From: Apostichopus japonicus
Taxonomy: Eukaryota > Echinodermata > Holothuroidea > Aspidochirotida > Stichopodidae
DNA length: 64,000 nt
Direction: 5' to 3'
Assembly (NCBI RefSeq): GCF_037975245.1
Contig: NC_092574.1
Span: forward strand, 6,690,713 to 6,754,712
Shown: positions 17,939-60,700 of the stretch, piece by piece
Position numbering within the stretch: position 1 is the first letter of the stretch
How the letters are laid out: every line of letters starts with the position of its first letter
Translations under genes and position numbers: made by a program
The notes under the pieces: generated by a model
What the model saw: only the letters and a program-made list of their open reading frames with translations
Told to the model about the DNA's origin: nothing
Databases searched by the model: none

Positions 17939-20900
17939 GTAAACTTGATGAACGGAGGCAATTCATTCACTCTGGAAACCAACACTTTGCAGGAAAAGAT
18001 TTATACAAGATTCTTGGGGTACCAAAGTCAGCTACACAAAAGGATATAAAGAAGTCGTATTATGAGGTACAGTATGTTCCTGTTCTGGACATATTATTGA
18101 TTTGAATGATTAATTTTGTGTCAAAATTGAAAAGGAAACTAAACAAATGAAGATTAAGAGTTCCACTGGATTTGTCTACAAATTTTGTTGTTATGTAAGT
18201 GTTATGTTGTTGTTGTTATCTAGTTAAAGTGGCTCTAATAGAGTGACTTTTGGCAGACTTTTGACAGACTTAACAGACTATCATTAAACACATCTGTCAA
18301 TCCACGTTGCATATCTTTATACCACTTTTTTTTTTTGGGAGGGGGGGGGGGTGAAATGTCCCTTTAAACATCTGCTGCTCAGCAATTAAAATAGTTTGAC
18401 TACATAGTCTTAGATACAGACCATTAGGTCAGTACAGTACAGTACATTGATTCAATTCATTAGGAAGACTAGACTTATATTATAAGTATTCAATTGTATT
18501 TAACTTAAATTATGATGTTCCAAGACAAAAATTCTGCCTGAAATCACCCCACAGTCTTTTTATTTTTATATGGTACCTACAGTTGTGGTACTACAACTGA
18601 CGAAAATGAAACTATTTAAGAAACGCAATTAAATTACAATGTTTTGTATAATTTGTATTGTACTTTGCTATTTATCATATTTATTTGTGAGTCACTTACA
18701 CTGTTAATATTGTAGGTTACAAAATGTTTTTTACAATTTAACATGTTAAGTGCTGTAGATTGTCATTTAAGGCAATGGATTTAATTGACTCCTTCTTCAA
18801 TAGCTTGCAAAGAAGTACCACCCAGACAAAAACAAGGGGGATGAAACAGCTGCTAAGAAGTTTTCAGAAGTTGCAGAAGCGTACGAGGTACAGTCAAATT
18901 TAAGTTAATTGCATAGAATTTTGCAGAAGAATAATTTCCAATAAGACAACTTGAGAAACTGTGGAACATGTACTTTCCAGCTCCCCCCCCCCTTTCCTTT
19001 TTCCCCATCCTCTCCACCCATAACCTTTTTGTTACATCCCCAACTTGGCTTGGAATTGGAGAGGATATATGGAGTTCATCTTTTTTTTGTAACTTTTGCT
19101 TGGCTTGTTGAGGGAATAAAAGTTTGGCAGTTGTAAGTGATGGTTATCTGGACAGTAATATTAGTTCTCAAACCCACAAGACTGTTTTGTAATGCAAGGT
19201 ATGAATGAGTACTGTTAATTCAAGGAAATTACAACAACAAAAACAGAAAATAAAAACAGATTGTCACTTGTTTTTCAAGACAAGGAAATTAGGTCTTAGA
19301 TCTCAACATCACAGCCACACTTTGAATCAAGATAGATGATCCTTTCAGCTCTTTGTCCTTAACTACTTTGCACCAAACTAATGTAAAAAATAAACACTAT
19401 AGCACAGTACTTCCAACAATTGGAAGTTTGTGGGTGGTTTCTGTGCCCATGTGATGGAATCTCGGCAAATGTGTGTCAGTTTCCTAGTTTTATTAAAAAT
19501 CATCCTTGATGGTTTATCATTGAAGCATGATACAAATTTGGAAATCTATTTTTTTCTCCCTCAGGATAAATTTGTACAAGAATTTTTTTTTTCATATCAT
19601 TTTTTTTTTGGTAATGTCATCGGTTCTTCTGTCGTCAAATACCATTTACTTTAATTAGATTAGAGAATTTTCAGTACGAATAACAGAATTAATTTCTGTT
19701 GTGATAAGGCATTGCCATTTTTGGGGTTTTTACCGAATTAAAATGATTAACCATTCTGTAGTTTTTGTTAACATTCAAACCTTCATCGATGGATGTTTGC
19801 TTGCTTGATTCATGTTCTTTACTTCATGCAAGTTCTGAAAAAATGAAATTTAATTTCCTCTTACCTCGCAGACTCTTGGAGATGAAACTCGTAGACAAGA
19901 GTATGACACCTATGGTCAGAGTGGATTTGGTGGTGCTGCGGGAGGAACAGGGGGTAAGTAGAATAGTGTTTGTTAACCCAGTCAACACAGACTTGGATAA
20001 ATTTAGTTATTTTTATGACGCTTGAGCGACCACAAATGTGGGAGAAACCACCAGCAAGGTCTTATGGATTACAACTTACACGTTGGGTGGCTTCCAATTC
20101 AACATTTTTACTCAAATTTTGGAATCTTTTCAATTTTTTTCAGAACTTTAGTAACATTTAACTGGTTCCTGAATTCATAGTTAATAACATTTAACTGGTT
20201 CCTGAATTCATAGTTTATAACATTTAACTGGTTCCTGAATTCATAGTTTATAACGTTTAACTGGTACCTGAATTCATAATTAATAACAATAAATTGATAA
20301 CCTTGATCATTTGTTCTTCTTTTCTATAAAATATACAGGCTTTCAAGGACAGTGGCAGCAGGCCAACATTGATCCGGAGGAATTATTCCGCAGAATATTT
20401 GGAAACAACGCGTTCGACCCCCGCGCTGGCTTTGAAGAATCTGTATTCGGCAATTTTAGTGATGCACACGAGGTAGGTACTATTACTTTACAAGTTTACC
20501 ATAATTAAGTTGATTGGATCCAGTATTGAAGTTATTAGCAAGTGATATGTGATAATGTAAATAATTGACTAACAGGCTGCAAAAGATCATGTTGTTGCCT
20601 TCTGAATGGTAGGTCCAGAAGGAGGAGAAAGTGGGGGCGGTGTCCTGGGAAGTGGGGTTTATGGGGTGCAGTGCTAAAGTGTTACTAGCCACATAGTTTA
20701 GTGAGATAGAAAAGTGCATATGTAGATTGGAGCCAGGTGAGTTTTAGGGATGATCATGTGTTTCCCAATTGGCTATACCTCTCCATGTGTGGAAGATGCA
20801 GGTCCAATTTTCAGTTCTCAAAGCCCACAATTTGGAAGGCCAATCAACATTTAGAAACTACAAAAGATATGAATATGCATATTTGATCACTTGAGTATTG

Positions 20901-23900
20901 ATTTTGGAGGGCTCGCAATGTTGAAAGGCAAGTTTTAAGTAAAGCATTTTTATTTCAGTAAGCAAATTTCAAAGATAAGAAAGAAGTGTTTGTGTAACTT
21001 CATCATACCATTTGATTCTGTGGAGGCAATGGTCCCCCTAATAGTGAGCTGAGATTGTGAACGTCCATCTACCTGGTGTATGAAATATTATATGAGGAAG
21101 TTGGGCTAAAACCCCAAAAAGCTTTAATTAGACCCGGGGTGATCGTTTACAGTCTGTGGTATCTGTGAAGGACAGAAAGATTGTAAGGGATGATTATTGA
21201 TACCTTTAGGTGATGATGGACCTAACATTCAGTGAAGCTGCCCGTGGTGTGAACAAGGAAATCAATATCAGAATGGAGGATTCCTGTGAGCGGTGTAAAG
21301 GAGCACGAGCAGAACCGGGAACCAAAACCACCAAATGTCACAGATGTAACGGGACAGGACAGGTAAGCGCACACTCACTGGGTCTGGGTCTAACACTACC
21401 ATAGTATCATAGATGTAACGGGACAGGTAAGCACACACACTGGGTTAGGGACAAACACCAGCATAGTATCATAGATGTAATGGGACATGGTTGGTATGCA
21501 CACACTGGGTTAGGGACTAACACCGCCATAGTATTACAGATGTAACGGGACAGGTAAGCACACACACTGGGTTAGGTACTTACACCGCAATAGTATCACA
21601 GATGTAATGGGACAGGTAAATACACACACTGGGTTAGGCACTAACACCACCATAGTATCATAGATGTAACGGGACAGGACAGGTAAGCACACACTGGGTT
21701 TGGGACGAACACCAGCATAGTATCACAGATGTAAAGGGACATGGTTGGTATGCACACACTGGGTTAGGGACTAACACCACCATAGTATCATAGATGTAAT
21801 GGGACATGGTTGGTATGCACACACTGGGTTAGGGACTAACACCGCCATAGTATTACAGATGTAACGGGACAGGTAAGCACACACACTGGGTTAGGTACTT
21901 ACACCGCAATAGTATCACAGATGTAATGGGACAGGTAAATACACACACTGGGTTAGGCACTAACACCACCATAGTATCATAGATGTAACGGGACAGGACA
22001 GGTAAGCACAAACTGGGTTTGGGACGAACACCAGCATAGTATCACAGATGTAAAGGGACATGGTTGGTATGCACACACTGGGTTAGGGACTAACACTACC
22101 ATAGTATCATAGATGTAATGCTACAAGGATAGGTTTAGAACCACTAAACAATTGGTTAATGTGGGAGAGATCTCATCATAATAAAAACACCAAGAAAGAT
22201 TGATAGGACAAAGAGTTTGGTATTTTTTGACTTTCTATCAAGACCACTGTTCAAGACTTCCTAATTACCACTCACAGAGACAGTTTTCTGGGTAGTTTGG
22301 TAAAGCCAGACAGATTCTTACCATGTATTTTTGGGAAGTATTCTAAAATGTCATTCTTTGAAAACCTATACAGGAAACTGTCAATACCGGTCCATTTGTA
22401 ATGAGGACCACCTGTAGGCAATGCAGGGGTATGAGGGTCATCATCACGGTACCGTGTAACGACTGTCGAGGGTCCGGCACTACCATGCAGAGGAAGAAAG
22501 TGATGGTCCCCGTACCAGCAGGTAAGACGAGTGAGACTTACAAGCTTTAGATCAGTCAGAGTTAGTAACAAGGGTATGAAAGTCAGATCGTGAGTACCCA
22601 TTCAACCTAGGTCATCTGGCACTGAACATTTTTACCCCATTGTTTGATCCTAAACTTGTTTATGCTTTGTACCTCAGCTGACAGTGTTCGAACCTGGCTC
22701 ATCCTGCTCTGTTCCCCCCCTCCCCCCGCCCTATGTCTGCCCTGATCCTCAGTAATGATACGCTTGTGACATGTCCCCCCATCACCCCCCCCCACCCTTT
22801 GCCCTCAACTCCACCTCACCCCAACCCACCTCTCTCTTCTTTAAACTAATGTATTAAACCGCTGGAGAGCCTACAAGTCACTTCATCTGAGGCTAAAGTA
22901 AATTTCTGAAATCTTTACATAATTATTTCTTCTCCAAAATATGCAGAATTATACATTTCCAAGATAATGAAAACATGTCATCCATGACCGAGTTTGTTGT
23001 ATTGTTTTGTTGATTTTTTCACTTTAAAACAAAAGTTGAATTTGTCTGACAGGTCAAAGATTATGGTTACATACATGTAATAATTAAAGGATCTTTAGAA
23101 GGCCCAGGGGTTGAAATTGATGGGTAGCTACATAGGGTGTCATCTCTACTGGAATTCTTGTCATTTATGCCATGGTTCATCGACAGACATGTGTTTCTAT
23201 GTAACTTATTTACATACATTTTTGAGTTGGAGCATTGGTTTTCCTCAGCAAAGTGTAGAGGGTGACTTGAGGCATAAAAATTAAAGTTTGATATATTGTA
23301 GACCATTAAAACACACTGCTTTCAGTCCAGGTTGGATTCCTTATAATAACCCTTTTAATGTTTTGAGAAGTGACCCTTTGAACAAGTGAAGGTCGTCAAC
23401 TAAAGTGACTGGACTATGAAGTCTAATAGACAGACCATTAATAGGTCAGTTCAACATGTGCAACACAAAACTCAATGACATGTATAAAATACATTACAAA
23501 TTAGGTCAACGACATATAGTGTTGAAAGAACTTGAAGGTCATCCAAGGATGTTCTCTTGTTTATATGATGTTTAAAGAACATATTATTTGAGTTGAGTTA
23601 TAGGCAGTTATGAACAATGTAATAATGTTAATTTTAGCATGCACTGCGGATACCATACTACCCAAAGCCTTAAAGGGGCAGTCCAGAATTTTAGCATATT
23701 TTGAAGGTGAACATCTTGAAAATCCAAAATAGCTATAGACACACTAACCAGCACCCAGAGTTTTTCTCCTTTCTTGAACAATATATCAAGATTAAAGTTC
23801 ACCCTCAAGTCACCCTTTAAAAATGTGGGTTCCATTGACAATAACACTCTGCATTAATTTTTTTTTCTGTATTTAAAATTTATTATTTTTTTAAATTTAT

Positions 23901-26900
23901 TTCTGTCTGGCCTCAGGAGTTTCTGATGGACAAACTGTACGGATGCCTGTAGGGAACAGAGAACTGTTCATCTCCTTCCGCGTGGCACGAAGTAATACAT
24001 TTCGCAGAGACGGAGCAGATGTACACTCGGATGCGAAAATAAGCTTTACCCAAGCTGCCCTGGGAGGTACCATGAAAATGAAGGGGATTTATGATACCAT
24101 TAGCCTCAATGTAAGTCAATATCTGAAACTTATTTTAAATAAAAAAAACTTATTTACATCTTGCAAAATGTATCAAAGGAATTTTGTGTCCAAAGATGAA
24201 ATTAAAAGTTTACAGGATCAACCTGATGAGTTAAATGGTGGGGATGTGCAGGGAAGACAGGGCGTGGATTCGGAAAGGGGTGGGAAGGGGGGGAGGAGAA
24301 AGGTGCCAAAGTTTTAATAACTGAGGCTATTTTCAGAAGTTTTCCTTGGGGTGTATACTTTAGAAATTCCAGTCCATTGTTTGTGGTTGTAAACTCTTTC
24401 TATGCATTTTATACACCCTAGTCGGTTGCTGACTCGAGTGACTTTGACAAGCAGTGAAAAGGAAAACAGGAAAATAAATGCCTAAGCTGCAAAATGTCAT
24501 AGTTAATGTGACCTGGATGGGGGATGCTGCCGATTAGTTTTGAAAAGAAATGGAAAAATCTTGAACATTCTTCATTCAAGAAAAAAAGAAGAAGAAAGTA
24601 AGCTTGTTTGCTTGACAAGTCAGTATGAAGTCATTACAAAATTTGAAGTAAATTAAGAGAAAAACTTTTGTGGAATGTGACATCCACGGAAAGAAGACCT
24701 CAGCAACATGTTGTCTGTGGTATACATAACTTGCTGGTTGATATCTATACCAGAGGGCCACTAGTAATCCATTAGCATTCATATTTCTGACCGTAGTAAC
24801 TGTCGGTAGGAAGTGCACAGAAAAATGTGCCGACTACCGAGGTACGGTCTGTTTTGGATCATTAGCGACATTTTTTGACGTTGGCTAACATTTACATGTA
24901 TGGTATGGTAGGTACGGCTGTCAGAGTTTAAATAGAGATTGTATTTGGTCAGGACCGGTAGTACGTTTGTGCCGAAGGTTTAAGTTTGTCAATGTCTGGC
25001 CACATTTTGCAGAGTACTGTCCCGATGTATTAAAACCCGGTACGAGGGGAATGACGACCTTTTCTTCATATTAGAAGTTGCGACTAGAAAAGTTGACGTG
25101 CTTGACTGCCATTCCGTTACAAACATGCCTACTTCATCAAATTTCTAAAGTGGGATTGACTCTAGGTGGCAAACTGCAGCGCTTGGTTCAGAAATGACGA
25201 AAAACCTTTTGGATTTAACATTCTTTGGCGTATTTATCGTTCTCTACCATGATTTGCAGTTCTTAAACATCAGGTCCTGAATAAATATGAATAGGAAGGA
25301 AAGAGTATGTGCTGTAGACTTTTAATTCGTACACACCCCCCCCCAAACCCCACCCCACCATACCCTTCACCCTAAGTAAACTGTTGAGTTATGTCAAGTT
25401 CCAAAATTGAACCAGAAGGTTTGGTTGAATCTGGCAAATCAGGTATCCTGTGAGGGTGCTGTAGTCAAGTGGTTAAGGCAGTGGACTTGTGATCTAAGGA
25501 TTACAGGTTCGAGTCCTGGCCAGATCATTGCATTGTGTCCTTGGGCAAGGCACTTTATCTCCATTGCCTCTCTCCACCCAGGTGTATAAATGGGGACTTG
25601 CGAGGTTACTTGTTAATATAGTTGCAGGCGCCGGTTTGTGGCTGCACCCTATGGGAAGTCCCCCGGAGGACACATGGTTGTGGTGCATCGTGGTGCCCCA
25701 GGAGAGATTGATTGAATTGTGCACACTTTGGTGTGTGGGTGTGACAAGTTACCAATGACCAGGGATAAGTTGTAAAGTCGTGTGAGAGGGCCTTGGCCCT
25801 GAACAAGACTGTAAACCTTAATAATAAATATCCTGCCAAATTTGTAATGTCAAAAGGGGTACATCCTTACTTTTGGAAAAAAATCTTAGTATTCTCTCTG
25901 TTACGTTGGTTTGATTTAATTATGTAGATAGGGCTAGTGGCATATTCAGTATTGTAGTATTCAATGAAACCTGCATTATGTAAAAAAAATATCATTCTTA
26001 TAACAATTTAACAACAACCCTGTTGCATGTAACCATTTAAGGCAACCTTGAGAGTCGTTCATGCCAAAGTGCAAACAGTAACAGTTAATTTACTATTCCA
26101 GGCTATATACAGAAAATGTACAGAAATGGATTCAAAAACAAGGTATCATGCTGTGATTTGCCACTGTGCTCAATTTAAACTAACTCAGCCATGCTCCTTT
26201 GGAAAAATTAAACAATGGAGCCATTGATTGTCAAGTTTCTTAGCAACAACAATGGTAAGGTAGCATAGATCATGGTGGTATGCTTTTAGCTGGGGAGTTA
26301 TGTTAACACAATGGCTGCCTGAATAATTGAATTATGCATTTAAGGGGAGGAATTTAGTCTTGACATGTCATAGCCCAGGGAGAACAGAACCTTTGATTTG
26401 CCCCTAATATTTCTATAAGCTGCAGTATTTTGTCAAGGTATTCAGCTACTATGAAATATACTTAATCTTTGGAATGTTCTTTTTAAGACTAAATAGATTT
26501 TAAGTCAACCTTGCAGTACAGGCTTAAAAAAAAAACCAAAGCACAAAACAAACACAGTGACCTTAGATGACTTTTGATACCATTTGACCTTGACAAATTT
26601 GCAGTTGGTAGACAGAATATGCTTACAGGTTATAATACCTTTATGTTTGTTCTGCTGTGGATTGTGTTGCATTTGAGACCTTCTTCTTCACTCTGTGTTA
26701 GGCTAAGTAGTCCAGTCGTTGAAATTGATGAGCCTCAGATGTTTTTGAAGGATTGCTTTTACTCAAAAATGAAAATTGTTCTCCATACAAAACCTGTTAT
26801 GTTAGCAGTTATTATTTTTTTAATTGTCCACAATAAGTCAAAGTTAACTTTGTACCTCAAAGTCATCCAGCCTGTTTGTGATACCATGTCAGTCAGTGGC

Positions 26901-29900
26901 GGAGCGTCCATACAGTCAGAGGGGGCGGATGCCCCCCCCCCCCCTGACGGACTCAAATGGACTGCTGGCACCCTTTTCAGCTTTTTACCACTTTTTACTT
27001 ATATTTGTCATTATTGACTTTTTTATTGCGCTCTCAAATCCCCTTTGACATTTGTCACATTTTGTTGGTGTAATTTTCTAACAAAATGGCGATGACACTC
27101 ATTTGTCCTTCTTTTATCTGCAAATAAGCAAGGCCCGGAAACGGTCATTTCCGGCGATCTAGGGAGTATCTTTACTCAAAAATTTTCTGTGCGCTCTGCG
27201 CCAACTTGTGGTGGCGCTCCGCTTAGATAGTGTCGAAAGCGCCCCTACAGACCATTCTCGCCCCCCCTGACCAATACCCCTAGCTCTGTCACTGATGACA
27301 GTGCATAAAATTAACCAAGCAATCAGCAGTATTTTGTTCATACCTGAGCGAAAATGGTAAACGTTTGTTCAAGGAACCTTAGTTTGATGACTATTTTATG
27401 GTAGGAGGGGGAATGTGAGGGGTGGGAGATATTAATAAGGGGAATAGAGCATGTAAGGGTTTATGTTTTGATATGAAATGCAAGTACTTTCTTTAGTTAA
27501 CACTTTGTTTTATGTTATATTGAATTGAAAATTGTACTTGTTACATAGCTTGGGTTCCATTGATAATGGAGGAGATATTTATAACTGTTGTGCAGTGGTT
27601 TGGATGACCAAAACGATATGAATCTTGTTTTGCATATTTCACCGAAAGGACTACCGAGGTATCAAGTTGAATAGTTACTTTGTGTTACTCCGTAAATTAT
27701 GTTCCAAGTCGGTGACCGTTTCAGTCACTCAGGTCTTGGTGATGGCTCGAGTGTCGTCCAAGCCCCAATATTTTTTCGGTCTCGTCAAAGTTTGTACGTA
27801 GTTCATGTGTCGGTCTTCCATATCTTTTTCTTGGTTGAGATTTCAAATTCAATATTCTAGCATGGATCGTCTGCATGTACATCCCTTCTTCTAAGAATTT
27901 GACTTGAGTTAGACCCAGAATTTATGAAATGTTGAATTTGTCTTGAGCATTGATATGTCTCCTGTAAAAGAAAACTAGGTGCATTTTGCCTTTCTTTTGT
28001 AGATACCAGCCGGTACTCAATCTCACGACAGAATACGACTCCCCGGTAAAGGGATTAGCAGAATTAACAGTCACGGATACGGCGACCATTACGTACACAT
28101 CAAGATTAGCGTTCCAAAGTAAGTACCGCATATGATAAGATTAGCGTTCCAAAGTAAGTACCGCATATTATAAGATTAGCGTTCCAAAGTAAGTACCGCA
28201 TATGATAAGATTAGCGTTCCAAAGTAAGTACCGCATATTATAAGATTAACGTCCAAAGTAAGTACCGCATATTATAAGATTAACGTTCCAAAGTAAGTAC
28301 CGCATATTATAAGATTAACGTCCAAAGTAAGTACCGCATATGATAAGATTAGCGTTCCAAAGTAAGTACCGCATATGATAAGATTAGCGTTCCAAAGTAA
28401 GTACCGCATATTATAAGATTAACGTCCAAAGTAAGTACCGCATATTATAAGATTAACGTCCAAAGTAAGTACCGCATATTATAAGATTAACGTCCAAAGT
28501 AAGTACCGCATATTATAAGATTAACGTTCCAAAGTAAGTACGGCATATTATAAGATTAACGTCCAAAGTAAGTACCGCATATTATAAGATTAACATTCCA
28601 AAGTAAGTACCGCATATTATAAGATTAGCGTTCCAAAGTATGTACCGCATATTATACTCATCTGATCAATTTTTGTTTCTGTGACACGTTCAAGGCATTT
28701 TCGTCCATAAAATTTCCCAAGAAAAGGAAGATTTACCCATTGAGGTGCTAATTTTGAATATTTAAATTTTTGTCATAGAAGTAATGAGCAGCCCTTAATT
28801 AACGATGTCAGTGAATTCTGGATATTATGAACTCCAGGTGTGCATCTGTTTGTTAAACCGTGAGAGCAACATGGAACCTGCCCATATTGTTAAATCCTCT
28901 TAAAACTGTTCCAAGTTGGGAAGAAACCAGGATAAATATTGTGAAAGACATTTGAACACTCGAGTTATATAGCAATCTAAAAACAATTGCTATATGCTAT
29001 GTCATTGTTTAAATAAGAGTTTCATGGTCACAAGACTGGTTATATCCGTATCACGTTTTGACGATTATGATTAAATGACCTTTGACTTTGTACCTTTACC
29101 ATCTCATTTAAATAAATGAGTCAGAGACATAGCTCTACAGTATGGTAAGAGAGAGATTGATAAAGACTGATAGCTAAACTTAAAATGCAATATTGTACAT
29201 TGTCACTCTGTGGAAGCATTGCCCAGTCGGTGAATGTTGGAAAAAAGCTTATCAAAAGTGACTGGTTGTAGATTGTTTCAGTGATGCAATTCTGTCTTCG
29301 TTTCTAGGAAACTCTCAGCTAAACAGAAATCACTCCTGATGGTCTTTGCGGAAGAAGAGTCTGGTGTCTCGGGCACTGTGAATGGACTAAGTAAAACACA
29401 AGATGGTAAGTAAACAAGTCTGACCTGAATCACATAATACAGTTGGAGAATCAAGGTCAATGACTTCTGTCCTTCTTGTACCCTTTAAGAACTTGCATAG
29501 TCTGTTTTGGATAAGCCTCAGGTAACAAGTTGGGTACATGAAACTGCTTTGGTAATCACAGAAGAGAAATCATAAAATTAGAGAAACATGTCTTCGTATG
29601 AGGGGCAAGTAATGGGTTGCATCCAGAGTAGGGTGCAAGGGTCTTAGTATCACTGACAAGAAGAGGTGAAAGGATGAATGTCTGTAAAAGTAAAAGTAGA
29701 AGGATTACAGTCTCGTTCAAGGCCCCCTCACACGACTTTACAACAGTTATCTCCTGTTCATTTGTGTCACACGCACACACCAAAGTGTGCACAATTCAAA
29801 CAATCTCTCCCAGGGCACCACTGCGCACCACAACTACATCTCCCCCGGGGGAACCTCCCATATGGTGCAGCAACAAACCAGCACACACAACTATGTGTAC

Positions 29901-31270
29901 AAGTTACCTCGCAAGTCCCCATTTATACACCTGGGTGGAGAGAGGCAATGGAGATTAAGTACCTTACCCAATGACATGACATAATGATCTGGTCAGGACT
30001 CAAAACCTGCAATCCTAAGATGGTCAGTCCATTGCCTAAACCACACAAGTGTTACTTTAGTAGTATTAAAATTGTAGCCGTGTGGGTAATTTGAATGTCC
30101 TACTATCTGATGATAAATTAGAATGTTTTTGTGATAGTTAAAGCAGGGCTTAAAAACAGAAAACTAATATGGAGTAGAATTCATTGCGAAAGTGTTCAGT
30201 ACTGCATTCAGAGAGATAACGGTTATACAAATAGAGAGTTACCATTTCTGTTCACATAAAAACAAAGTATTCATCATCTTTATCATCACTCAACAAGGTT
30301 TTAAGGATGGTTTCTTATTTGTATTCACCCAAGCAATGGATAATTGCCCAAGCTAATAAGAACATTCTCACTCCTGTAATTTGGCATCAGGGGATGTTAC
30401 ATTGCGATACAAATAAGTCCTCTTAGGTAATATTAAGGTTTGCAAACAATTTCCAATTTTTTGGGGGTATTATTCATATTATTACTTTATAAAAGAATAA
30501 TGATTAAAATTCCATTCTACATCTACAGAATCTTTTTTATTTTGCTATGGAATAGTTAATCTTATTAAAAGCTTCTGCGCTCTGTTTTCTGGCTATCTAA
30601 CATGACAGTCGATTGCAAGATTTAGTCCTGGAAATATCAGGAAATGTTTTAGAATTTAAAGAAAAGAGTAAAAATTGAAAAGACTTATCCAGTTTGGGGT
30701 GCATATAGTCACAATGTGAGGCAATTTTCAAGCAAAGCAAAATTAAAAATAAAAAAAACCCCCAAAATACAGCATGCTTCTACGATGAAATTTTACGACA
30801 AAATATGAAGTACTTATTAGTCTACTTTGCTTGATTTCAGACAAAAATAAGGAAGATATACCCGACAATGATGGTGAGGATGGTGAGGAAGGGCAAAAAG
30901 AGGAGGGTTTCTTTACGAGATTAGCGAGAAGACTAGCAACGGGATCATATAAATAGCCAGATTATAGAGGTACGCTGCTATATATAGTATTAAACACCGT
31001 CTAACACTATGTGACATATTGTGTAGTTTGTTTGAGGAAATATTATAAAAACCAAATTATGGGCAGCGGGCAATTTACAGCGAGTTATGATTGAGAGCTT
31101 TCCGTATCGTTATTTCAGGGGCTAACATAGTGACTGATGACCCAGATGGTACCGTTGCTAGGTTACGACATACAGTTCACTCGCCCACAACCGAAGAATT
31201 TGCTCACAAGGTGGCCGAAGACATCGACGACAAAGAGGACGACACAAAACGCAATAAACGTAACACCTGA
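17939..31270 (+). CDS. DNAJA3: DNAJA3 / Tid1 mitochondrial type-I Hsp40 co-chaperone (first coding exon missing)
   Basis: Type I J-protein that recruits mitochondrial Hsp70 and stimulates its ATPase. Exons in phase: 17939-18066, 18804-18887, 19872-19953, 20339-20472, 21210-21362, 22374-22521, 23917-24110, 28003-28118, 29308-29405 and 30841-30956, encoding 416 residues. In order they carry: a likely presequence cleavage region RRQFIHSG; a J domain from DLYKILGV with the HPD motif at the start of exon 2; a Gly-rich linker; a [11 protein letters not shown] segment typical of DNAJA3; four zinc-binding CxxCxG repeats ([32 protein letters not shown]), two ending in Arg instead of Gly; the substrate-binding region ([35 protein letters not shown]); and an acidic then basic C-terminus. 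The true start was not found. An ATG at 17917 is in frame but lies over the likely splice acceptor. Two introns begin with arrays made of their own donor site. A second, alternative last exon is listed separately. Confidence 0.93.
20152..20283. repeat. 33-bp minisatellite, four copies, in a DNAJA3 intron
   Basis: Four tandem copies of TAACATTTAACTGGTTCCTG followed by AATTCATAGTTTA, with only a few substitutions. The array ends about 55 bp before the acceptor of the exon at 20339, so it fills the area where the branch point would lie. Confidence 0.9.
21346..22125. repeat. Minisatellite seeded by a DNAJA3 exon/intron boundary (61-65 bp unit, 12 copies)
   Basis: The last ~17 bases of the exon ending at 21362 (AGATGTAACGGGACAGGACAG) and the following intron start are repeated about 12 times, with a partial 13th near 22110. 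Units vary in the splice-site part: some keep GGACAG/GTAAGC, some have GGACAG/GTAAAT, and some have GGTTGGTATGC. Units 3-7 and 8-12 are nearly identical five-unit blocks, so a ~317-bp higher-order block was itself duplicated. Confidence 0.93.
23670..23820. mobile_element. Short TTAA-flanked miniature element (probable)
   Basis: A 151-bp segment begins TTAAAGGGGCAG and ends, on the opposite strand, TTAAAGGGTGAC, giving a short inverted repeat bounded by TTAA at both ends. TTAA target sites are typical of piggyBac and Kolobok transposons. The inverted match is only about 8 bp, so this could be chance. It lies about 100 bp before a DNAJA3 exon. Confidence 0.45.
25449..25832 (+). mobile_element. 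tRNA-derived SINE, full length
   Basis: The head resembles a Ser-type tRNA: A box TCAAGTGGTTAAGGC, the stretch GGACTTGTGATC, and B box GGTTCGAGTCC. The body starts GTGTCCTTGGGCAAGGCAC and includes CACCCAGGTGTATAAATGGG and GTGCACACTTTGGTGTG. It ends in an AATAATAAATA-like tail. Two more copies of the same family lie at 29684-30053 (minus) and 51662-52085 (plus), all in or beside genes. Confidence 0.9.
26894..27294. mobile_element. hAT-type miniature element in a DNAJA3 intron
   Basis: The 401-bp element has ends CAGTGGCGGAGC and, on the opposite strand, CAGTGACAGAGC. It is flanked by ATGTCAGT (26886-26893) and ATGACAGT (27295-27302), an 8-bp duplication with one mismatch. The interior has no transposase. 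Its right part (GCGCCAACTTGTGGTGGCGCTCCGC region) also occurs inside the hAT element at 37009-38541, so the two are related. Confidence 0.8.
28096..28655. repeat. Minisatellite seeded by a DNAJA3 5' splice site (34-35 bp unit, 16 copies)
   Basis: The exon end AAGATTAGCGTTCCAAA with its donor GTAAGTACC (exon ends 28118) is the first of 16 tandem copies of AAGATTA(G/A)CGT(T)CCAAAGTAAGTACCGCATAT(T/G)AT. Fifteen copies keep a consensus donor GTAAGTACC or GTAAGTACG; the last has GTATGTACC. Two length variants (34 and 35 bp) are interspersed. Use of any downstream donor would read CCA AAG TAA, an immediate stop. Confidence 0.95.
29684..30053 (-). mobile_element. tRNA-derived SINE, minus orientation
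   Basis: This is a reverse-orientation copy of the SINE at 25449-25832. Read on the minus strand it has the degraded tRNA head (GGACTGACCATCTTAGGATT, then GCAGGTTTTGAGTCCTG), the CACCCAGGTGTATAAATGGG block and the GTGCACACTTTGGTGTG block. It is more diverged than the other two copies and lies in the last DNAJA3 introns. Confidence 0.85.
30841..30969 (+). CDS. DNAJA3: DNAJA3 canonical C-terminal exon (with its own downstream donor)
   Basis: The exon joins the phase-1 end of the exon at 29405 and encodes an acidic stretch then [18 protein letters not shown] and a TAG stop at 30954-30956. The basic end resembles the short basic, hydrophobic C-terminus of the long vertebrate isoform. A donor-like GAG/GTACGC lies at 30969/30970, only 13 bases after the stop, so this exon can also behave as a skipped cassette. 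Confidence 0.8.
31119..31270 (+). CDS. DNAJA3: DNAJA3 alternative C-terminal exon
   Basis: After a TATTTCAG acceptor, 152 bases remain open in exactly the phase needed to follow the exon ending at 29405, and they end with TGA at 31268-31270. The result is a ~50-residue tail rich in Asp, Glu, Lys and Arg (for example [16 protein letters not shown]), giving a 428-residue product when the exon at 30841 is skipped. If the upstream exon is included, this segment becomes 3' UTR. Vertebrate Tid1 also has long and short isoforms with different C-termini, so the layout is plausible. No transcript evidence was available. Confidence 0.6.
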
Positions 31271-34200: not shown

Positions 34201-35007
34201 ACCAAGTTTTCAGTTGTGTAAAGATACTCACTGCTTTCTCAGTCTTGGCCAATCAAAACCCTTTAGAAGTACCCACATGACCATGGTTGTAAAGTAAAAA
34301 TTACAGAATTTACTCCCCTCTCGTACTGTGAATAAATAGAAAGCACTTAGGATTTTTTGTTTTTACATAGCTTACGACTTTAATTAACGTGTTAGTCGTA
34401 ATTGACTCTTTTGTTGTTTACATACCCACAGCTGTTGCATATGCCAAAGTAACTTAAAAGGTCCACTGTGTGTGTGACAATTGGTTTAAAAGGCCTTTGT
34501 TTACCTTTCATATTAACAAGGTTTGGTAAACTGTCTTCCATTTAAATAGAGAGATCGTTACAAATGTGTCGCCGATTCTGCTGGGATTTTTTCAGCGCAT
34601 ACAAGATAACTGAACATGTAGTTGAATACATCACTTACAAACTACAGCTTCTTGTATGGACATACCGTTCTACCTGATAAGGAACTTATACAACTGATTT
34701 TTGGTGTAATTGTCTAAATTTTTGTTCAGGATTGAAATTTGACTGCCATTTTTTCTTCTCCATTATTTTTGTGCAGACACTCTTGTAGAGTAATAAACGA
34801 TCAATCAATCAATCGAAATCGAATCGACTATTGTACGCTTACATTAGCCTATATGTTCACCGTTGTCGGGAGTATCCTTCCTAAAATCTTTCGGCGTGTT
34901 GAATCAAATTACTCTTAAATAACAACAACATATTTGGCCAAATATTTTTCCGACCGTTAGGCTACTTATCTTAAACTATTGTTAACTCATTATTGTTGAG
35001 GATCAAA
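31271..35007. other. DNAJA3 3' flank and intergenic region
   Basis: This is AT-rich non-coding DNA with several A/T homopolymers, AATAAA-like words (for example around 33370-33400), a short TTCTG run near 33860 and a C-rich run near 34060. I found no exon or recognisable mobile element. The GPCR promoter would lie at the right end. Confidence 0.5.
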
Positions 35008-36108
35008 ATGGCAGCAGTCAATTACAACGAGTCAGATTGTTTTGTGTTAAATGTATCAACATACAGCCACTCCATGGTATCGGATTATTTCTTATATAAG
35101 AAAGTCGAAGAAGTCATTTTTAAGATTGTCCTCCCAATTGTTATCGCCTTTGGTTTCTTCGGCAACGCATGTTTTCTTTTTGTTATTTGGCGCGTTCCAC
35201 GAACGAGAACGGTGACGAACATGTACCTCTCTCATCTGTCGGTAGCCGATATGCTCTTTTTGTTTTTCGGTGCAGGAGAAAAAGTCGTACGTGTCTTCGT
35301 TTCGCCCGTCGTAGTCGACCGTTATTTTTTCTCTCAGTTTGGATGCATCATCGTAATCTTTATTCTTAATGTGTCATCGATTGCGTCACTTTTCTTGGTA
35401 ACCTTGGTTACAGCAGAACGGTACTACGCTATCAGTCGTCCAGTAAAGCATCGTCTTATGGCGGGAAAACCTCGGACGCTTAAATTCATTACCACAGCTT
35501 GGATCATATCTGTTTTGATATCGATCACAATTGTGCCCAGTCATTCTGTGTTCTCCACGTATTGCTTCGTCTGGCCGGACGACGATTTGTATGTAAATTT
35601 CCCGCCAATAATTGGCGTATGCGATAACATACAACCATGGTGGACGGATTATGCGAATGGTATGCAAACGATACCATTTTTCGTAGCACTGTTCTTAAAT
35701 TTCTACATGTACTTTGCAATCATTGTAAGCCTGTACAATCATGTCGATCCTTCTAGCTCTGTATCAGCCTCGGCAACACGCATGCGCCTTGTGGTATCGT
35801 GGATGGTGATCTTCAATGGAGTTGTTTTCTTTTGCTGTAATGCCCTCTTTAATCTCATCTCTGCCATGTTTATGGTCTCTTCGTTGGCTGGTAACACTAC
35901 CGTGGCCATGCAATGGTACCATGCAGTATCACCATTCCACGTTCTATTGCTTTACATTAATTCCATGGTTAACCCATTTATTTATGGCGCCACCAACAAA
36001 CGTTTGCGTAAAGCTTTCATTGCGTCAATGGGATGCGCCGGACAAGGTATTACGTCATCGGATGATTCAACACACCACCACACTTTCTCGATGACCTTGA
36101 AGAATTAG
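35008..36108 (+). CDS. Rhodopsin-class G-protein-coupled receptor, intronless
   Basis: A single open frame of 366 residues, started at the ATG at 35008 (AAAATGG context); upstream in-frame codons have no ATG. It has seven hydrophobic segments. N-terminal glycosylation sites are NES and NVS. Family landmarks are GN at residue 53 (TM1), LSVAD at 77-81 (TM2), Cys113 before TM3, ERY at 137-139, Trp165 (TM4) and NSxxNPxxY at 318-326 (TM7), followed by a basic KRLRKAF helix 8. TM6 lacks the usual CWxP and reads SWMVIFNGVVFFCC. Loop 3 is short. The overall pattern is closest to peptide-type receptors, but I cannot name the ligand. Intronless receptors like this are common in lineage-specific expansions of marine invertebrates. 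Confidence 0.9.
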   Translation: MAAVNYNESDCFVLNVSTYSHSMVSDYFLYKKVEEVIFKIVLPIVIAFGFFGNACFLFVIWRVPRTRTVTNMYLSHLSVADMLFLFFGAGEKVVRVFVSPVVVDRYFFSQFGCIIVIFILNVSSIASLFLVTLVTAERYYAISRPVKHRLMAGKPRTLKFITTAWIISVLISITIVPSHSVFSTYCFVWPDDDLYVNFPPIIGVCDNIQPWWTDYANGMQTIPFFVALFLNFYMYFAIIVSLYNHVDPSSSVSASATRMRLVVSWMVIFNGVVFFCCNALFNLISAMFMVSSLAGNTTVAMQWYHAVSPFHVLLLYINSMVNPFIYGATNKRLRKAFIASMGCAGQGITSSDDSTHHHTFSMTLKN

Positions 36109-51661: not shown

Positions 51662-52085
51662 TATGATCAAGTGGTTAAGGCAGTGGACTTGTGATCTAAG
51701 GATTACAGGTTCGAGTCCTGGCCAGATCATTACGTTGTGGTCAAGTGGTTAAGGCAGTGGACTTGTGATCTAAGGATTACAGGTTCGAGCTCTGGCCAGA
51801 TCATTACGTTGTGTCCTTGGGCAAGGCACTTTATCTCCATTGCCTCTCTTCACCCAGGTGTATAACTGGGGACTTGCGAGGTAACTTGTTAATATAGTTG
51901 TGTGCACCAGTTTGTGGTTGCACCCTATGGGAAGTTCCCCGGGGACACGTAGATGTGGTGCACTGTAGTGCCCCAGGAGGGATTGTTTGAATTGTGCACA
52001 CTTTGGTGTGTGGGTGTGACAAGTTACCAATGACCAGGGGTAAAAGTGTCATGTGAGGGGGCCTTGGCCTGAAACAAGACTAAAA
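51662..52085 (+). mobile_element. tRNA-derived SINE with a doubled tRNA head
   Basis: Same family as 25449-25832. The tRNA-like head (TCAAGTGGTTAAGGC ... GGTTCGAGTCC) occurs twice in tandem at a 74-bp spacing (from about 51667 and 51741), then the usual body and an A/G-rich tail. The first head is cut off right after its first ~10 body bases (ATTACGTTGTG). The two head copies differ by few bases (GAGTCC versus GAGCTC), so the duplication looks recent. Confidence 0.9.
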
Positions 52086-57700: not shown

Positions 57701-60700
57701 TCTACAGTTATGTCATCTCACAGATTATTACTTGATATGATCCATATCTGTATTTTGCAACCCAAGTCAAGCTCAATTCGTATGCATGATGTAGGCCTTC
57801 ATATGATCACCTTTAGTTAGACATGTGACCCAATACATCATTAGTTCATATGATCAGGACATGTATTCTCATAAATGATTGGTTAATAAACAGTTTGAGA
57901 AAATGTTCACTTTCCAAACCTTGATCAATTCTGCCACTGCTGTACCAATATAATCTATAAGACCAAGCTCTGTCAAACCCTGTAAACAAGAAAGAAAAAA
58001 AAAGTAAGGCGATTTGTTCATTCAAGCTTTACCTTTGAAGTTCAGGATTTGACCTCTGGTGACCTCAAATGACTTTTGCCCACCACAGAGGATGATAGGA
58101 ATTCTTCTAACTCATCAAGATGCATCCACACACCAAGTATGGATTTTTGAACCACCATGTACCTTTTTTTTTTAAGTTAGAGAGTTTACAAACCAAAGTC
58201 TCACATACACACACATCATCACCATCACATTGATTCACAGGGAACCAAAAAGACCAGGATAGATAAACTGGTGGTACATGATGGGGTGTTGTGGGGGAGT
58301 GCTTGTAGAAAAGGGTGTTACTTTGAATCCTGGCACAGACGGCTGATTCCTTATTGCTGGAATATAAATCTTAATCAGTGTATGGTGCCACTGATCATGA
58401 TAGGAATATCATGGCAAGAGCAACCAGCTGGTAAGGTCTCCAACCAAATGCGGGACACAAGATGACTTTAAAAGAAACAAAACCCAATTTGTTTATTTCC
58501 AGAAAATGTATGTTTGAGAAACAGCAGCGTCAGACCATATACCAGGAAGTCATAACAGGGCCGATCTCTGCATCATCGAGGGAACCCAAGAGCAAACCAG
58601 ATCACCAAAGTATTCTTGGAGAAAACAGTCATCAAAAGGAAGATATTTATTAGAGTAAAACTCACAGACTTTGTCCAGCATGACTAGACTCTTAATCGTT
58701 ATTTAATAGTCAGAGAGTGCCAAGCATGGCTCCAAAGAAAGAAGTGGTGAGGACCTTACAGGAACCAAAAGAGCAAAACCAATGCCAACTTTTAACCCCA
58801 AACTGTGCACTTGATTTTCTGCCCTTGTCCTCCTTGCATTGTGAGATAAAAACATTAGAAACAAGCATTATATCTGAATAGTTACTGTGGAATGGGTGTG
58901 AGTGTTCTGTAACTAAAACAATAGGATGAACTTGTCTAGGGTTCAAGCTCTAGTGACAGCAGTTTGCATTTCCTCCTTAGATTGTGAGGTTTAAATATTA
59001 GAAACAAGCATTATTTCTCATCAGTTACAGTGGCGCAGTTGGTAGTGCTCTGAAACACAAGAGTTTGATAAATGCCAAATCTGCGGTTCAATTCCCAGTT
59101 GAGGCTTTTAATTTTCTGATCTTTTCTTAATTCCATTCTGAGGTTTACATATTAGAAACAAGCATTATTTCTCATCAGTTACAGTGGCGCAGTTGGTAGT
59201 GCTCTGAGTTATATAAATGCCAAATCTGCGGTTCAATTCCCAGTTGAGGCTTTTAATTTTCTGATCTTTTCTTCCTTCCATTCTGAGGTTTAAATATTAC
59301 AAACGAGCATTATTTCTCATCAGTTACAGTGGCGCAGTTGGTAGTGCTCTGAAACGCAAGAGTCATATAAATGCCAAATCTGCGGTTCAATTCCCAGTTG
59401 AGGCTTTTAATTTTCTGATCTTTTCTTCCTTTCTTTCTGAGGTTTAAATGTTAGAAACGAGCATTATTTCTCATCAGTTACAGTGGCGCAGTTGGTAGTG
59501 CTCTGAGTTTGATAAATGCCAAATCTGCGGTTCAATTCCCAGTTGAGGCTTTTAATTTTCTGATCTTTTCTTCCTTCCATTCTGAGGTTTAAATATTAGA
59601 AACGAGCATTATTTCTCATCAGTTACAGTGGCGCAGTTGGTAGTGCTCTGAGTTTGATAAATGCCAAATCTGCGGTTCAATTCCCAGTTGAGGCTTTTAA
59701 TTTTCTGATCTTTTCTTCCTTCCATTCTGAGGTTTAAATATTAGAAACGAGCATTATTTCTCATCAGTTACAGTGGCGCAGTTGGTAGTGCTCTGAAACG
59801 CAAAGTCAGATAAATGCCATATCTGCGGTTCAATTCCCAGTTGAGGCTTTTACTTTTCTGATGTTTGGAGAAGGTGGAAGTATAAATATAAGAAACGAAG
59901 TTTTCCCATTGGGAACCAAAATGGTGTAATGGGTAGCTCTGCTACCTATGAATTATTGATCATCCTGCCAGTGTGGGTTCAAGTCCCAGGTGAGCAATCG
60001 CTGCAAAAGGACTTCGCTGGATAGGTTTGTCTGGTACCCAAAACCCCCCTCCCCCTCCCCCTGACAGGGTGAGTTGCGCGGACTAGGTGAGTTGCGCGGA
60101 ACCCCTCCCCCCTGACAAGGTTCCAGGGCGGACAAGGTGAGTTGCGCGGATCCCTCCCCCCTGACAAGGTTCCAGCGCGGACTAGGTGAGTTGCGCGGAA
60201 CCCCTCCCCCCCTGACAAGGTTCCAGCGCGGACAAGGTGAGTTGCGCGGATTCCCTCCCCCCTGACAAGGTTCCCCCCCCCGAAGGGGAAAATTCTTTTA
60301 ACGAAAAAGTACTAAGTACCAACAATTGGATGTTTAAATATTTCTAATGAAACCAAAATCAGTAGTCCACCTAATGGTCTGGTGGTAAAAAAAAAAATTT
60401 TGGATCATAAGATCCCTGGTTCAATCCCTACTTCTGCCTTCTTTTACTCTGTTAAAGATCACTTGGATGCCACATTTTGGTGGTTGTTTTAAGTGGATAA
60501 AATTTTTGCCATGTATTCTTTAAGGTGCTAAACCATGAGAAAAATCAGCACTTTTTGTTTGTGTGTGCTTTTTTTCTTTTCTTTCTTTTGTTTTCTTTTG
60601 TTTTCTTTTGTTTTTTTAATGTAAAATAAGGCAATTGAAAATATAAAGACATAATAAAAAAAACACACAAAAGCTGATGTTTTAAGCAGCTTACAGAATA

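Follow-up and report, generated by a model that had tools for sequence, protein, structure and literature searches.

Donor-spanning minisatellites in the DNAJA3 gene of the sea cucumber Apostichopus japonicus are probable 5' splice site mirages

Tandem repeats that span exon/intron boundaries, called mirages, are described in amphioxus in several genes, i.e., Adh3, the globins BflGb6 and BflGb9, PGBD5 and troponin C, with units of 10-72 bp in Adh3, about 150 bp in the globins and 60 and 108 bp in PGBD5, and the available text of the two reports also cites similar structures for presenilin and retinol dehydrogenase (PMC3087553, PMC3902484). According to the same text, BflGb6 has 6 units on one haplotype and 3 on the other, and RT-PCR suggests normal splicing despite the mirages (PMC3087553, PMC3902484). 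The human IFI6 gene contains a minisatellite that, in the portion of the source at hand, 'provides multiple splice donor sites', two downstream units being used to give three mRNAs (PMC4526556). Variable internal tandem repeats are also reported in the accessible part of a study of human segmental duplications; their units measure about 30 bp, and some lie at exon-intron boundaries (PMC2812944). With the amphioxus mirages and human IFI6, the kind of repeat treated here is already known. What is perhaps new is a probable echinoderm case, with two arrays in one gene and about 150 candidate arrays genome-wide: judged by titles and the beginnings of abstracts, none of the matches listed in a literature search whose scope left out most subscription journals described an echinoderm or sea cucumber mirage. 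The IFI6 (6-16, G1P3) splice-donor minisatellite, which Turri et al. 1995 are said to have described, reportedly starts where exon 2 ends, and its 12-bp unit is said to keep the frame and to yield alternative proteins.

The window, i.e., the whole stretch of 64,000 nucleotides analysed here (C14:6690713-6754712), holds a DNAJA3 gene model on the forward strand (17995-30953) with 10 recognised exons, the part of the gene 5' to the J domain lying beyond the model. The assignment to DNAJA3, proposed earlier in a sequence-only reading of this DNA, is borne out by two human DNAJA3 matches in the PDB, 2ctt at E 1.7e-31 and 2dn9 at E 6.1e-25, and the model contains the Pfam domains DnaJ_C and DnaJ_CXXCXGXG. 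Acceptors are canonical, and the frame is continuous only via the first donor where donors are repeated; a pseudogene was considered and found unsupported, the exons being open and the splice signals canonical. Searching the genome with DnaJ_C (671,581,487 bases in 35 contigs) returned 11 loci of about 3 kb each (L009-L019), among which L015 and L016 are the DNAJA3 gene of the window itself; within these loci only L009 otherwise matches the model at E 1e-3, with 40% identity across the first 114 residues. Two of the nine donors in the gene model are amplified into arrays, and at both of these junctions the alignment with the DnaJ protein 6jzb is ungapped, the nearest gap lying six residues past the junction of array 2, which human DNAJA3 (2ctt) spans with equal lengths (93 vs 93 residues).

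Array 1 lies at the end of the exon coding IPAGTQ...KISVPK (28003-28118, forward strand), which is recognised by its translation and splice signals, by DnaJ_C and DNAJA3 homology and by a DnaJ_C match in the genome search. This exon follows the acceptor TTTTGTAG/ATACCA and ends with ...GTT CCA AA/GTAAGTACC, i.e., at a phase 2 intron, AA being two bases of the split codon. The array itself (28102-28656, forward strand, 555 bp in total) consists of 16 units of 34-36 bp according to TRF, a unit split and a unit alignment; TRF gives a period of 35, 16.0 copies, 95% matches and a score of 970, far beyond the chance level. The sequence-only reading had described a 16-copy array of 34-35 bp units starting inside the exon, with the last ~17 exon bases and the donor as first unit and a consensus donor kept in fifteen units, and this description holds: the array opens 17 bases inside the exon, unit 1 comprises those 17 exonic bases plus the donor (TRF, unit split and translation), and 15 of the 16 units carry AAA/GTAAGTACC, either exact or altered at one base, with GTAAGT kept in all 15. 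The 16 donor positions run from 28119, 28154 and 28189 onwards to 28638. In the final unit GTATGT replaces GTAAGT, the sole change in the donor hexamer; variable columns number 6 of 35 in the unit alignment, one of them inside GTAAGT, and the units bear their variants in an ordered set. From the frame and the 6jzb protein alignment, the GTAAGT of unit 1 (28119-28124) is probably the authentic 5' splice site. Joined to the next exon (29308-29405, G/AAACTCTCAGCT..., with the acceptor GTTTCTAG, placed by splice signals and frame), this first donor gives AA/G AAA CTC, completing the split codon and keeping the frame. Any later donor gives instead an mRNA reading AAG TAA, with the TAA at 28120-28122 in frame and a protein stopping at once after ...VPK, as had been claimed for every donor but the first. 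When the genome was queried with 70 bases covering two units, 7 matches came back, every one inside array 1; a dispersed repeat or transposon as its source was not supported, the unit being found only there among the best candidates scored in the genome search, which skips very common words.

A further donor-spanning array in the same gene had gone unmentioned in the earlier reading. It lies at the end of the exon coding MMDLTF...CHRCNGTGQ (21210-21362, forward strand; translation, splice signals and homology), which closes in phase 0 with CAG/GTAAGC. Array 2 (21327-22118, forward strand; TRF, unit split and donor list) has about 12 units of 62-69 bp and also opens inside the exon, taking in the ~25-30 terminal exon bases and the donor. 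Its 12 donor positions comprise 6 CAG/GTAAGC, 2 CAG/GTAAAT and 4 TTG/GTATGC, so that the first donor is intact and 6 of the 12 are changed from GTAAGC, as expected if the later copies are unused; these losses are not independent, however, because array 2 has longer repeat periods in TRF. Later donors would lead to a TAG after 13 codons. The following exon, coding ETVNTGPF..., occupies 22374-22520 behind the acceptor CCTATACAG, its 3' end being placed within 1-2 bases.

Other repeats and features also occur in the window. A third array (60076-60274, forward strand; TRF and unit split) is built of units of 51 bp that contain CAAGGTGAGT or CTAGGTGAGT, both a strong donor consensus; by-eye inspection recognised no exon on its left, and it is therefore left out of the donor-spanning kind. 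Within DNAJA3, a purely intronic array of 33-bp units occupies 20148-20288, and an exon starting near 20339 follows it after about 50 bp. Tandem units at 51667-51813 and 58969-59866 resemble tRNA-like sequence by eye (GGTTCGAGCCCTGG; GGTTCAATTCCC) and are perhaps tRNA-derived elements in tandem, and a 377-codon stop-to-stop open reading frame at 34975-36105 is reminiscent, again by eye, of a seven-transmembrane receptor.

Like the amphioxus mirages, the DNAJA3 arrays are minisatellite-like tandem copies, of comparable unit size, that include the end of a coding exon and its splice signal, and in both cases several genes per genome are concerned; judged on these features, array 1 is of the mirage kind. 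They differ from the amphioxus arrays, which belong to a cephalochordate, in coming from a holothurian echinoderm and in lying both at donors (the genome sample described below was itself chosen by a donor word), whereas the amphioxus globin mirages also include an acceptor; moreover, normal splicing and length instability are reported for amphioxus, while the DNAJA3 arrays are known from the sequence of one assembly. With IFI6, array 1 shares a donor consensus per unit (GTAAGT in 15 of 16) and a start at the edge of an exon, as is reported for IFI6. In contrast with the 12-bp IFI6 unit, which reportedly stays in frame, its units are 34-36 bp long and lead to an immediate TAA, so that the frame is not kept, and IFI6 alone is reported to use more than one donor. 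The segmental-duplication repeats, in the accessible text, belong to recent paralogues, where they are tied to novel introns or are themselves retained (PMC2812944), unlike DNAJA3, a conserved gene whose first donor still yields the conserved protein.

Donor arrays recur elsewhere in the genome. A whole-genome pattern search required AGGTAAGT three times with gaps of 20-50 bases, the reversed word serving as control, and the first 100 of its 374 matches listed were merged by eye into 10 distinct arrays over ~66 Mb, each inspected in its 5' flank. Among these matches, the first donor apparently marks an exon end in 6 of the 10 arrays, and three of the 10 have homology support for that exon: L054 is KRI1 (PF12936, E 4.8e-28), L051 is a protein tyrosine phosphatase (PF00102, E 6.2e-10; PDB, E 4.2e-10) whose exon ends at VHC, which we take to be the active site, and L047 is a ceramide glucosyltransferase (PDB, E 7.6e-17). 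In L048, L052 and L056 a frame is open up to the donor, exon status coming from the open frame and splice signals; L052 and L056 had no Pfam match, and L056 none in PDB (best E 0.49). As for the remaining four, no exon was found in the 5' flank of L050 and L053, L055 has at most a possible short first exon, and the array of L049 runs past the left edge of the stretch examined. For a second donor word, AGGTGAGT, the first 108 Mb among the matches listed hold at least ~9 distinct arrays. Extrapolating from the 10 inspected arrays, the exact words AGGTAAGT and AGGTGAGT would form, very roughly, ~150 arrays genome-wide, perhaps half of them at exon ends. Two AGGTAAGT clusters (C1:2433338-2434870 and 2475062-2477975) are spaced mostly by ~76 bases, outside the 20-50 base gap pattern, and were therefore missed, so that the number of donor arrays given here is a minimum. 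These observations are a sign that donor mirages are frequent in the A. japonicus genome. They are nevertheless a minority of all arrays, since none of the 11 arrays of at least 3 copies listed in 20 arbitrary 10-kb stretches repeats a donor word throughout its units.

How splicing chooses within such a ladder can be considered from predicted properties of array 1. Pairing with U1 is predicted at -7.0 kcal/mol for all units from 1 to 15, and local RNA folding leaves the first donor unpaired at 0.65, as against 0.54-0.83 in units 2-15; an RNA structure concealing the later donors was thus not supported, folding giving the first donor no advantage. Because U1 pairing is equal and folding gives no advantage, the sequence alone offers no reason for the first donor to win, and its choice, if so, must therefore be positional. 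Among tandem identical donors, the one closest to the acceptor is reportedly often preferred under published rules, which speaks against the first donor; under exon definition a donor is favoured by a full exon, its enhancers and a short distance to the upstream acceptor. NMD is expected where two junctions follow a premature stop, and later donors of array 1 may be used at a low level, leaking into NMD. With variation confined to 6 of the 35 unit columns, selection is not required to account for the donors kept in 15 of the 16 units: given this proportion, the chance of at most one variable column among the six donor bases is ~0.73 (hand calculation), and selection maintaining the array 1 donors was set aside as unneeded.

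The DNAJA3 arrays are probably near-neutral minisatellite mirages of the 5' splice site, the first donor being normally used and the later copies intronic. Local tandem duplication of a segment across the exon end and its donor would have given birth to the minisatellite, which would then have expanded into the intron, where later copies would leave with the intron and drift nearly neutrally, tolerated because the first donor still works. We infer that splicing normally uses this donor, since no other gives the conserved protein and it adjoins the whole exon. If a later donor were used occasionally, translation would stop at once and NMD would remove the mRNA, so such arrays could be tolerated, and copy number would be expected to vary among individuals without a strong effect on DNAJA3. 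This reading is backed by the same anatomy at array 2 and at exon ends of other conserved genes, and use of the first site fits better because such arrays occur there and because the amphioxus mirages are, in the available text of the reports, harmless to splicing (PMC3087553, PMC3902484).

A different account of their origin, namely that minisatellites nucleate preferentially at 5' splice sites, e.g., through transcription-linked breaks, is unlikely although it has some numbers on its side. Two of the three TRF arrays in the DNAJA3 model span a donor, and when three arrays were placed randomly with coding sequence spared, at least two fell at donors in 0.6% of trials (simulated chance 0.006), a post hoc figure that rests on the present gene model. 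Likewise, 10 donor arrays stand against 6 control arrays in the same 66 Mb among the matches listed (P = 0.06), the 6 being 11 minus 5 tetranucleotide-like arrays; with all 11 control arrays kept, P rises to 0.32. Whole-genome matches, which long arrays inflate, favour the donor word for AGGTGAGT (566 vs 297 for its control) but not for AGGTAAGT (374 vs 446 for the reversed word); as single words, the AGGTAAGT donor word is the rarer (27121 occurrences vs 40132 for the control word). Chance is explanation enough: in a genome rich in minisatellites some would happen to overlap donors and would then be tolerated. A broader proposal, to which we would give little credence, is that minisatellites arise preferentially at 5' splice sites, with ~150 arrays of near-identical donors, many at exon ends of conserved genes, and that length-dependent, low-level use of later donors tunes some of these genes, DNAJA3 included.

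The sequence-only reading had left two outcomes, i.e., that the first site always wins or that the array is an NMD switch scaling with copy number; the former fits better, and the latter, with just the stop itself in its favour, fared poorly. Such a switch, in which later donors would be used often and under regulation, each adding its TAA, and longer arrays would lower DNAJA3 protein, appears improbable. It would draw on the equal predicted U1 pairing of units 2-15 with the first donor and on the premature stop that alternative sites bring in both DNAJA3 arrays (the immediate TAA in array 1, the TAG 13 codons on in array 2). Outside DNAJA3, a later donor likewise meets a stop before the next copy in 5 of the 6 other exon-like arrays: L047, L051 and L054 stop at once, via GTAAG after a two-base split codon, and L048 and L056 later but still in the first copy, the frames of L048, L052 and L056 being assumed from the longest open frame. 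The immediate TAA is, however, no evidence for a switch, because GTAAG at the start of a phase 2 intron always produces one (xxG TAA), and chance stops are common within ~50 intronic bases. The sole array of the six without a stop, L052 (C2:13555120-13555650, minus strand), also speaks against it: this 33-bp donor array, with 11 residues per unit, stays open in its assumed frame, so that later donors would lengthen the protein rather than stop it, in which it resembles what is reported for IFI6. Stops are hence frequent in donor arrays, and frame and chance explain them, an NMD switch being also compatible. The donors of array 1 show no sign of selection, one of the six variable columns falling within GTAAGT. 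The described systems point both ways: downstream units of the human IFI6 array are in use, according to the portion of the source at hand (PMC4526556), whereas amphioxus mirages are reported harmless to splicing in the text available (PMC3087553, PMC3902484).

An assembly artefact is highly improbable, for although tandem arrays are often misassembled, as reportedly was an amphioxus globin mirage in a draft (PMC3087553, in its available text), array 1 is 555 bp long in an assembly made, according to the accessible part of its description, from PacBio HiFi reads (PMC10344927), its unit variants lie in an ordered set, and arrays of the same anatomy are found elsewhere.

Read as near-neutral mirages, these arrays, and array 1 in particular as judged from its DNA, most likely leave DNAJA3 working normally. 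Where real exons end in a ladder of near-identical donors, here 3 to 16 of them, nature offers an experiment on the choice of 5' splice sites, in which U1 pairing is constant and position varies, and with many ladders apparent, a HiFi assembly and published transcriptome studies, donor choice is answerable by read mapping. More broadly, the arrays suggest that mirages exist beyond cephalochordates, which bears on the proposed gain of introns by tandem duplication.
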